Assembly (NCBI GenBank): GCA_022652815.1
Contig: JALCRR010000004.1
Location: forward strand, 27,926-91,925
Reading direction: 5' to 3'
Source: Oscillibacter sp.
Lineage (GTDB): Bacteria > Bacillota > Clostridia > Oscillospirales > Oscillospiraceae
Length of the DNA stretch: 64,000 nucleotides
Position numbers and translations under genes: made by a program. This document shows, piece after piece, positions 4,011 to 21,250 of this stretch (the first letter of the stretch is position 1; each line of letters opens with the position of its first letter). The notes under the pieces are model-generated. The model saw only the letters and a list, made by a program, of their open reading frames with translations, did no database searches and was not told the DNA's origin.

Positions 4011-5204
4011 ATGAATTACAACAAGAAAACGATTCTGGACGTGGATGTTCACGGCAAAAAGGTTCTGCTGCGCTGCGATTTCAACGTGCCGCAGGACAAG
4101 GAGACTGGAGAAATCACTTCGGACAAGCGTATTGTTGCCGCTCTGCCCACCATTAAATACCTGCTGGAAAACGGTGCAGCCGTCATCGCCTGCTCCCATC
4201 TAGGCAAGCCCAAGGGTGAGTGGAAGACCAAACTGAGCCTTGCACCCGTTGCAAAGCGCCTTTCCGAGCTTCTGGGCAAGGACGTGATCTTTGCAAAAGA
4301 CGTCATCGGCGAAGACGCTCAAGCCAAGGCCGCAGCCCTAAAGCCCGGTCAGATCCTGCTGCTGGAAAACACCCGCTTCCACATCGAGGAAGAAAAGAAC
4401 GACCCGGCTTTCGCAAAGAAGCTGGCCTCTCTGGGCGAGCTCTTTGTGTCCGACGCATTCGGCACGGTTCACCGTGCCCATGCCTCCACGGTTGGTGTGG
4501 TCGACTATTTGCCTGCCGTGTCCGGCTTCCTGGTTGCCAAGGAGCTGGAGATCATGGGCAAGGCCCTGGACGATCCCAAGCGCCCGTTTGTGGCGGTGCT
4601 GGGCGGCGCCAAGGTTTCCGACAAGATCAACGTCATCAACAACCTGCTCGAAAAGGCCGACACCGTCATTATCGGCGGCGGCATGGCCTATACGTTTGCA
4701 GCCGCACAGGGCGGCAAAATCGGTCAGTCCCTGCTGGAGGCGGACAAGGAGTCCTATGCGCTGGAGATGATCCAAAAGGCAAAGGACAAGGGCGTAACGC
4801 TCCTCCTGCCCACCGATACGCTGGCGGCAAAGGAATTTTCTGCCGATGCAACGCCCGTCACAGTGGATACGATGGCCATTCCCGACGATATGCAGGGCTT
4901 GGACATCGGACCCAAGACCACGGAGGCGTTTTGTGCCGCCGTCAAGGGCGCCGGCACCGTCGTGTGGAACGGCCCCATGGGCGTTTTCGAGTTTGATGCC
5001 TTCGCCGGCGGCACTCGTGCCATGGCCAAGGCTCTAGCCGAATCCGGCGCCATCACCATCGTGGGCGGCGGCGACAGCGCGGCGGCTGTGGAGCAGCTGG
5101 GCTTTGCCGACAAGATCACCCACATTTCCACCGGCGGCGGCGCAAGCCTTGAATTTCTGGAGGGCAAAGAATTGCCCGGTGTTGCCTGCCTGCAAGACAA
5201 GTAA
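4011..5204 (+). CDS. pgk: Phosphoglycerate kinase
   Basis: [32 protein letters not shown]. Confidence 0.98.
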
Positions 5205-5245: not shown

Positions 5246-5319
5246 TCGGGTCTCACCGAGTTTCACCGCGGCAAAAGCGGCGAAATCAAATAAAATTATT
5301 TTTGACCGCGGCGTGTACG
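5246..5319 (-). ncRNA. Core of a structured intergenic element, copy B (pgk-tpiA spacer)
   Basis: Minus strand CGTACACGCC...ATTTCGCCGCTT...GTGAAACTCGGTGAGACCCGA aligns to 21133-21203 with two conserved, compensatorily changed stems. Confidence 0.5.
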
Positions 5320-5398
5320 TGGGCAAAAATACCGCTCGGCCAGCAAACGTGCGAGCCGTTTTAACGGCGAGTGCGATGCAGCAGGCCGCATCCTTTTT

Positions 5399-5420
5399 CA
5401 AAAAGTGCGGGCACTTTTTG
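5399..5420. terminator. Perfect palindromic hairpin, possible bidirectional terminator
   Basis: CAAAAAGTGC-GG-GCACTTTTTG. Confidence 0.55.
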
Positions 5421-5480
5421 AACGTTTCGACAATTTTTGATTGAAATTATAGATAGAATAAGAAGAGGAGAATCACTGTC

Positions 5481-6254
5481 ATGAACCGCAGATATCGTAA
5501 AACTGTTATTGCCGGCAACTGGAAGATGAATATGACTGCTTCCGAAACCAAGAAATTCGCCGAGGAAATGAAGAAGATCATGCCCCGCGCCAAGTGGTGC
5601 GACACACTGATCTGCGTTCCCTCCTGCAACATCGCAACGGCTGCAAAGGCCTTCAAGGATCTGCGCATTGCCGTGGGTGCCGAGAACGTGTACTACGAGG
5701 AGAAGGGCGCCTACACCGGCGAAGTCTCCGCCAATATGCTCAAGGATCTGGCTGTGAAGTATGTCATCTGCGGCCATAGTGAGCGCCGTCAGTATTTTGG
5801 CGAAACCGATCAGATCGTCAACAAGAAGGTCCACGCTGTGCTGGATGCCGGCATGAACCCCATCATCTGCGTGGGCGAGACGCTGGATCAGCGCGAGACC
5901 GGCATCACCGGTGACTGGATTGCGCTGCAGGTCAAGGGCGCTTTGTACGGCGTGAGCGCCGACAAGCTGCGCCGCTGCATCATCGCCTATGAGCCCATCT
6001 GGGCCATCGGCACCGGCAAGACCGCCACGGCGGAGCAGGCCGGCGAGGTCTGCGGCAATATCCGCGCCACCATCCGCTCTTTGTATGGTGCCCGGGTTGC
6101 CCGCTCTGTTACCATTCAGTACGGTGGCTCCATGAATCCGAAGAACGCTGCGGAATTGCTTGCCCAGCCCGATATTGACGGCGGCCTCATCGGCGGCGCC
6201 GCCTTGAAGCCCGAGCAGTTTGTTGACATCATCAATGCTGCCAATCAGGACTGA
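5481..6254 (+). CDS. tpiA: Triose-phosphate isomerase
   Basis: [41 protein letters not shown]. Confidence 0.98.
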
Positions 6255-18738: not shown

Positions 18739-20955
18739 ATGACAATCCAGGAACAATATGACCTTCTGGAAAAAACCATTCTTTCCTACAATCCCCAGGC
18801 TGATATTCCTCAGATTCAGGCCGCGTTCGAGTTTGCCACCAAGTGCCATGATGGGCAAAAGCGCAAAAGCGGAGAGCCGTATATCATCCATCCTCTGGCG
18901 GTCGCCCAGATCGTGGCGGAGGAGCTGAAGCTGGACAGCGAGTCCATTGAAGCTGCTCTGCTGCACGACTGCATTGAGGATACGCAAGCCACCCACGATC
19001 AGATTTCCAAGCTGTTTTCCCCCACGGTTGCCGACCTGGTGGAAGGCGTCAGCAAGCTGACCCGCATCCAGTACGCCACCAAGGAAGATGAGCAGATGGA
19101 AAACCTGCGCAAAATGCTCATCGCCATGTCCAAGGACATCCGGGTGATTCTGATTAAAATTTCTGACCGTCTACACAACATGCGCACCATGGAGTATCAG
19201 ACGCCGGAAAAGCAGAAGCAAAAGTCACTGGAGACCATGGAGATTTACGCCCCCATTGCCCATCGTCTGGGCATGCAGCGCATCAAGTGGGAGCTGGAGG
19301 ATCTATCATTAAAGTATCTGGACCCCATCGGCTTTGAGGAGATCGTCTCCAAGCTGGATGCCAAGCGCCAGGAATACGATGCCTTTATGAACAAGACGCA
19401 GGAGCAGATCGAGCAGCGCTTGACAGAGCTTTCTATCGACCATCGGGTTTACGGACGCATGAAGCATCCCTATTCCATTTACCGCAAGATGTTCAACCAG
19501 AACAAGCAGCTGGATGAAATTTTCGACCTCTTTGCCTTCCGGGTCATCGTGGACTCCGTGGGCGACTGTTATAACGTTCTGGGCGTGATTCACGATATTT
19601 ACAAGCCCATTCTGGGCCGATTCAAAGACTATATCGGTACCCCCAAGCCCAACGGCTATCAGTCCCTCCACACCACCGTCATGGGCACCGACGGCATCCC
19701 CTTCGAAGTGCAGATCCGCACCCGGGAGATGCACGAGATCGCCGAATACGGCGTTGCCGCCCACTGGAAATATAAGCAGGGCGGCGTTGGCGGCGGAACC
19801 GAGGGACGCTACGAGTGGGTGCGTCGGCTTCTTGAAAATCAAGAGGGCACAGACGCCGAGGAGTATATCCATTCCCTCAAGGTGGATATGTTTTCCGACG
19901 AGGTGTTCGTGTTCACACCCAACGGTGACGTGACCAACCTCCCGGCGGGCGCCACGCCCATCGATTTTGCCTATTCCGTCCACTCTGCCGTGGGCAACCA
20001 CATGATCGGCGCCAAGGTCAACAGCCGCATTGTCACGCTGGATTCCACCCTAAAAAACGGCGACATTGTGGAGATCATTACCTCCAAGGCTGCCAAGGGC
20101 CCCAGCCGTGACTGGATGAAGATTGCCCGGTCCAGCGAGGCACGCAGCAAGATCCGCCAGTGGTTTAAAAAGGAAAAACGGGAAGAGAATATTGCCAATG
20201 GCCGCTCCGCTTTTGAAGCGGAGCTGAAGCACTGCGGCATTCCCATGAAGGACGTGTTGGACCCGGAAGTTTTGCCCGGCCTTTTAAAGCGGGTAGCCTA
20301 CGGTTCCATCGACGAGCTGTATGCCGCCATCGGCTACGGCGGCTTTACCGCTCAGAAGGCGGTCAGCCGGATGCAGGGCGAGCTGAACCGGGTGGCCAAG
20401 CTCCATCAGGCGGAAAAAGCCGCCCAGGATCTGGCTGCCGCTGAGGAAAAAACCGAGGAAAAGTCCACCGCACCCGCGCCAAAGGCCGTCAAGAGCGAAC
20501 AGGGCATCATTGTGGAGGGGCTGGACAACTGCCTCGTCAAATTCTCCAAGTGCTGCACGCCCGTTCCCGGTGACGAAATCGTCGGCTTCATTACCCGGGG
20601 CTATGGCGTGTCCGTCCATCGCTGCGATTGCCCCAATGCCTCCCTCGAACGGCGGAGCCTTCCGGGACAGGAAGGCCGCTGGATCAAGGTTTCCTGGGGT
20701 ACCGACGTCAACGAAAAATATCAGACCTCGGTGGAGCTGGTGTGCAAGGATCGGCAGAATCTGCTGCTGGATATCTCCGCGGCGCTCTCCACCACCAATG
20801 CCTTTGTGATGGGCATTCAGTCCCGCTCCACAGAAGATAAGTTCGCCATCTTCCACATCGACATCAGCGTACACGACGGCAAGCATCTGCGGGACATTAT
20901 GAACAAGCTCAACCAGGTTTCCGGCGTGCTGAAGGTCACGAGACCCGCAGGATAG
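18739..20955 (+). CDS. relA: Bifunctional (p)ppGpp synthetase/hydrolase
   Basis: HD motif LLHDCIEDT, synthetase YQSLHT, TGS and ACT domains; aggaggtgatcgcc RBS. Confidence 0.96.
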   Translation: MTIQEQYDLLEKTILSYNPQADIPQIQAAFEFATKCHDGQKRKSGEPYIIHPLAVAQIVAEELKLDSESIEAALLHDCIEDTQATHDQISKLFSPTVADLVEGVSKLTRIQYATKEDEQMENLRKMLIAMSKDIRVILIKISDRLHNMRTMEYQTPEKQKQKSLETMEIYAPIAHRLGMQRIKWELEDLSLKYLDPIGFEEIVSKLDAKRQEYDAFMNKTQEQIEQRLTELSIDHRVYGRMKHPYSIYRKMFNQNKQLDEIFDLFAFRVIVDSVGDCYNVLGVIHDIYKPILGRFKDYIGTPKPNGYQSLHTTVMGTDGIPFEVQIRTREMHEIAEYGVAAHWKYKQGGVGGGTEGRYEWVRRLLENQEGTDAEEYIHSLKVDMFSDEVFVFTPNGDVTNLPAGATPIDFAYSVHSAVGNHMIGAKVNSRIVTLDSTLKNGDIVEIITSKAAKGPSRDWMKIARSSEARSKIRQWFKKEKREENIANGRSAFEAELKHCGIPMKDVLDPEVLPGLLKRVAYGSIDELYAAIGYGGFTAQKAVSRMQGELNRVAKLHQAEKAAQDLAAAEEKTEEKSTAPAPKAVKSEQGIIVEGLDNCLVKFSKCCTPVPGDEIVGFITRGYGVSVHRCDCPNASLERRSLPGQEGRWIKVSWGTDVNEKYQTSVELVCKDRQNLLLDISAALSTTNAFVMGIQSRSTEDKFAIFHIDISVHDGKHLRDIMNKLNQVSGVLKVTRPAG

Positions 20956-21250
20956 CGGCGAAGCGCCGCCGGTGGCGGAGCAAGCGAGCCGCTATCGAGG
21001 AAGCGGCGCGGTTGGCAGGCGTGTAACGCCGGCAAACCGCCCTGCCGCGACGGTGGAAACCCTTTTCCGTGTCGCTGCGGCGGGCTGAGGAGTTGTGGCC
21101 GAAGTAAATTCGGCCAGAACAGAGTACGGAAGCGTACACGCCCTGCCGAAAATGATTAGAATTAATTTCGCCGCTTGCGGCAGTGAAACCCCGTGAGACG
21201 GGTTGCCCAGTGGCAAGAGCGGAAGTCCGAAAGATTTTGAATGAATCATC
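20951..21250 (+). ncRNA. Structured intergenic element, copy A (relA-dtd spacer), multiple hairpins
   Basis: Stems GATAGCGGC/GCCGCTATC, GGCCGAA/TTCGGCC, GTACG-GAAG-CGTAC, CTGCCG/CGGCAG, CCCG-TGAGA-CGGG, TTGCC-CAGT-GGCAA; core 21133-21203 matches copy B. Confidence 0.55.

Follow-up and report, generated by a model that had tools for sequence, protein, structure and literature searches.

The DNA between pgk and tpiA in this Oscillibacter genome raises the question of what a short run of hairpins there represents: a selected RNA fold or a structured mobile repeat, the two options offered by an earlier sequence-only reading. That reading had matched the minus strand at 5246-5319 to the plus strand at 21133-21203, between relA and dtd, and both sequences are present as quoted in the window (the whole 64,000-nucleotide stretch analysed here). 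The two patches are homologous, with a local alignment score of 62; 2000 dinucleotide shuffles never exceeded 27, the score also reached at the best unrelated place in the window. Blocks CGTACACGCC, ATTTCGCCGC, GTGAAAC and GTGAGAC are conserved in both copies, and the stem letters proposed to pair are complementary. The element was correctly located, but the unit is about twice as long as described and extends upstream on the minus strand.

Pairwise alignments between copies and a covariance model (CM) hit at 5246-5331 place the whole pgk/tpiA copy at approximately 5246-5422 on the minus strand, antisense to both flanking genes: pgk at 4011-5204 (plus strand; NCBIfam PRK13962, a fused pgk/tpi model, E 1.5e-188, below the curated cut-off) and tpiA at 5481-6254 (plus strand; TIGR00419, above cut-off). 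Its 5′ end is formed by the P1 hairpin, TTCAAAAAGTGC/GCACTTTTTGAA (5397-5422), whose stems in other copies are different and still complementary. In the P2 region (5335-5389), a by-eye comparison of copies suggests that arms CGGCCTGC..GCTGGCCG close around an inner hairpin flanked by CGCAC. The P3 hairpin TATTTTTG..CAAAAATA (5297-5331), with its conserved loop TACACGC and usually one mismatched A.C pair, and the P4 hairpin TTTCGCCGC/GCGGTGAAA (5261-5285) are defined by the pairing and covariation of helices 1 and 2, respectively. The 3′ end is P5, CTCGGTGAGACCCGA (5246-5260), a variable terminal hairpin whose stem is not kept in all copies. Of the stems emphasized by the sequence-only reading, CTGCCG/CGGCAG does not hold as a conserved helix, with only 41% of cells pairing family-wide, and the one enclosing TGAGA belongs to the variable hairpin at the end of the unit and is broken in several copies.

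The second copy lies in sense orientation on the plus strand between relA and dtd (21047-21202) and has a degenerate 5′ arm of P3. It was matched by two covariance models, R1, built on a wrong P3 structure (21121-21202, 75.5 bits), and R2, with the corrected P3 (43.4 bits); P1 (21047-21075), P4 (21166-21188) and P5 (21190-21202) were read from the sequence. Next to it, at 20949-21045, the same intergene seems to hold, on the reverse strand, a relative of a second palindromic repeat family, the CGAAACAGCCTCGCTTC..GGCGGCGCTTCGGCTGTTTC type. Repeats of this type also adjoin or nest in element copies at loci L127, L170, L114, L227 and L233.

Comparison of oriented copies defines a family unit of ~175 bases, a chain of up to five hairpins (P1-P5) in fixed order, and pairwise alignments among the copies of this genome put its ends at about -88 and +83 relative to the start of P3. 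P1 has a highly variable stem. P2 is branched and encloses one inner hairpin or two, and P3 follows, its ATTTT-stem closing the loop TACACGC. The linker AATGATT then leads to P4, which reads TTTYGCCGC/GCGGYRAAA in many copies, and the variable tail hairpin P5 comes last. Sequence homology in loops and linkers spans ~75 nt downstream of P1-P2. In L227, L229, L235, L238, L239 and L240 the P3 loop is swapped for a long conserved insert (ACAGAAGGTGAATTGC-hairpin-GCAAGA or near variants), and such inserts carry their own hairpins in some same-genus copies. After tpiA in L247, L249 and L254, P4 is shortened to CTCC..GGAG and contains a likely Shine-Dalgarno sequence of the next gene.

BLAST of the window copy against its own genome found more copies on contigs C34 (three), C1 and C46, and a covariance model of the 3′ half raised the count to at least 13 at E<0.01 in the 2.25 Mb searched (69 contigs), so that the two copies first noted are both real and belong to a far larger family. 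The proposed covariance-model search of relatives likewise found many more copies. R1 matched 25 of 60 relatives, one of which, G042, has 74 copies, and R2, counting up to 12 matches per genome, matched 34 genomes among 396 from the order (27 in family f1, four in f7 and three in f13). A pattern scan returned named relatives almost exclusively from Oscillospiraceae, with Oscillibacter, Dysosmobacter and Evtepia among them; pattern matches in Rhodobacteraceae, Patescibacteria and Sphingobacterium (L116, L119, L150) were not confirmed by a CM and were taken as chance. One IMG/VR contig classed as viral (L224, 9531-11351) holds three copies in 14.6 kb and could be a piece of a bacterial genome or the edge of a prophage. 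Among sampled pairs in G042, no near-identical copies were found except one overlapping pair. Searches with Rfam 15 returned only tRNA in the window and, at seven copy loci, best weak matches below gathering scores. The family is also undescribed in the open-access literature searched, where an unnamed motif in a supplementary table is possible. It is apparently a new member of the short interspersed structured repeats.

The copies are strongly oriented relative to the gene that precedes them. With codon-scored gene calls, 104 of 116 copies point the same way as the preceding gene; once near-duplicates are removed the figure is 65 of 74 (65 vs. 9, p=1.4e-11), while the following gene has no orientation bias (42 vs. 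31); these counts depend on a simple codon-score gene caller. Longest-ORF calls, which gave a weak bias (63 vs. 37), were dropped because antisense ORFs are long in these GC-rich genomes. Divergent intergenes are rare among element sites and many copies lie between convergent genes. Moreover, 51 of 87 element intergenes have their first hairpin starting no more than 7 nt past the stop codon, compared to 25 of 147 others (p=8e-11). Family models identify purA, purB, asnB, ornithine carbamoyltransferase, tpiA and relA/spoT among the neighbouring genes, together with dtd, groES, groEL and a DUF1846 protein; a YfcC-like transporter and pgk (fused model) scored below the model cut-off. The gene at L016 9272-11365 looks by eye like glnA and had no NCBIfam match at 1e-20.

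Sites anchored by homology agree with the sense-placement bias and show that occupancy is patchy: the orthologous relA-dtd, pgk-tpiA, tpiA-gpmI and groES-groEL sites are sometimes empty and sometimes occupied. Among 30 same-genus species searched with R2, sense copies follow tpiA in ~14 and pgk in seven, and at the pgk-tpiA site the window copy alone runs antisense. It is exceptional in this respect and probably an independent insertion. The groES-groEL site has approximately nine sense and two to three antisense copies, and most species have a short relA-dtd intergene free of the element. On a tpiA tree of 30 species, in which many branches are weakly supported, the after-tpiA state requires five changes and the pgk-tpiA states six. 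A search for terminal inverted repeats and target-site duplications found no empty site near enough to fix the element ends. In L230, L233, L234, L237 and L242, from same-genus species, the pgk-tpiA intergene holds a different repeat insert, beside which the final ~25-60 nt of pgk, stop codon included, occur a second time, as if gain of the insert had copied the 3′ end of the gene.

We evaluated covariation in 88 non-redundant copies, where P3 and P4 account for all of the six top-ranked APC-corrected column pairs. A separate MAFFT alignment of 67 copies has 93.9% of P3 and P4 cells paired (92.9% in P3, with both-sided changes at 8 of 11 pairs, and 95.3% in P4, with such changes at 7 of 8). 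Both-sided changes thus occur at 15 of 19 pairs vs. 9.9 in shuffles, and 182 cells are changed on both sides vs. 60, in shuffles that ignore relatedness; sliding of the pairing partners abolishes the signal. Among 959 cells flanked by good pairs there are 14 G.U and 20 A.C, short of the wobble tolerance expected of RNA selection, compared to 28 G.U in 381 pairs of 18 tRNAs called by ARAGORN in sequences of the same genomes (a comparison of G.U share only; ARAGORN bracket lines may omit A.C). This lack of preference for G.U speaks against selection acting strictly at the RNA level. An A.C mismatch is kept in P3 of 61 of 87 copies and is a G.T wobble on the opposite strand. At a site shared by G042 and sister species (neighbouring protein 95% identical), the P3 and P2 stems differ, are still complementary, and enclose matching loops. 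Because stems are swapped and loops kept, exchange of whole palindromic modules would fit better than stepwise compensation, and as judged from sequence the element looks less like an ordinary structural RNA than like a DNA palindrome built of modules. Returning to the opening question, the family stands as a structured repeat in many copies, its stems changing in compensatory fashion and its loops conserved, but a selected RNA fold is unsupported, with G.U as rare as A.C and whole stems exchanged.

We favour, at a probability of roughly 55%, a dispersed REP/BOX-like repeat that is old and modular, is shared by Oscillospiraceae with two neighbouring families, and persists as a cluster of hairpins between cistrons or at the 3′ ends of transcripts. 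Its copies would have spread within genomes through some copying process, with whole hairpin modules exchanged between copies, patching them and keeping stems palindromic. Retention would occur mainly where the cluster can act on the transcript before it, at its 3′ end, by halting RNA polymerase or blocking 3′-5′ exonucleases and so affecting termination or decay of that transcript, and the conserved loops would serve as a putative binding site. Exonuclease protection has been discussed for pneumococcal repeats (PMC3049150). A bolder version, in which the element is a lineage-specific transmissible 3′-end module placed in one orientation at housekeeping stop codons, with stems swapped as cassettes, fixed recognition loops and a dedicated putative binding protein or copying enzyme, strikes us as doubtful.

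The many copies and patchy orthologous occupancy would also suit a parasitic, non-autonomous MITE-like element that prefers one orientation beside a post-stop hairpin and brings the host no benefit, as would the occurrence of both orientations in groES-groEL, the other palindromic repeats nested inside copies and the P1-like hairpins found apart from the rest of the element. Croucher et al. argued for such a parasitic view of pneumococcal repeats (PMC3049150). We regard it as possible but on the unlikely side here, given that the copies are old and diverged, that the after-tpiA copy spans several clades with few changes, and that no transposase was identified, Y1_Tnp being absent in G042. A functional RNA of the conventional sort, either a cis-regulator or an sRNA family under selection for its fold, would account for the sense orientation and for strong covariation around conserved loops, but is improbable: G.U does not outnumber A.C and is far scarcer than in tRNAs of the same genomes, the downstream gene is inconsistent, many copies lie between convergent genes, and there is no Rfam match. 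Ordinary intrinsic terminators that became alike by convergence would explain placement directly after stop codons and the terminator-like P1 of some copies, including the window copy. P1 tails, however, mostly have one to three T in 10 nt, without the U-tract of an intrinsic terminator, so P1 is not a classical terminator, and the shared hairpin order and the conserved loops and linkers over ~75 nt downstream of P1-P2 also speak against convergence. The sequence homology of P3-P4 contradicts it, leaving it very improbable.

If the favoured reading of a retained 3′-end repeat is correct and the element shapes transcript 3′ ends, central genes (groES, purA, purB, pgk, tpiA, relA) would be affected in many species of gut Oscillospiraceae, which are abundant and poorly annotated. 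Furthermore, strong covariation in bacterial intergenic repeats can come from palindromic module exchange instead of RNA-level selection, and the wobble-pair test is a cheap way of separating the two.

Among known systems, REP/BIME sequences are similar as short, dispersed palindromic repeats, extragenic, modular, nested, placed after genes and present in many copies, whereas the ordered unit described here is much longer and has conserved loops and a strong sense bias at stop codons. Mobilisation by a Y1 (RAYT) transposase was rejected since the enzyme is missing from the genome with most copies: PF01797 has no matches in G042 (74 copies) and two in G000 (13 copies). The orientation bias at stop codons and the cassette-like exchange of stems are the unusual traits of the family. 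ERIC/IRU sequences of enterobacteria are intergenic repeats of ~100-170 bp with mobile-element features. RU-1 to RU-3, also enterobacterial, are intergenic repeats of the same ~100-170 bp with mobile-element features, as described in PMC2759123; both groups have an unrelated host range and are compared here by description. BOX elements of Streptococcus pneumoniae (PMC3049150) share an architecture of modular, structured interspersed repeats that are old, slow-moving and enriched between convergent genes, but in this comparison of architecture they differ in module order, host and the stop-codon sense bias, and apparently in sequence. Hairpin clusters near stop codons have been proposed to terminate transcription with no need for U-trails (PMC8355165). 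Such terminators resemble the copies described here in having clustered hairpins close to the stop codon (within ~80 nt) and in often lacking U-trails, and form a functional class, whereas the new family consists of homologous repeats with conserved loops.
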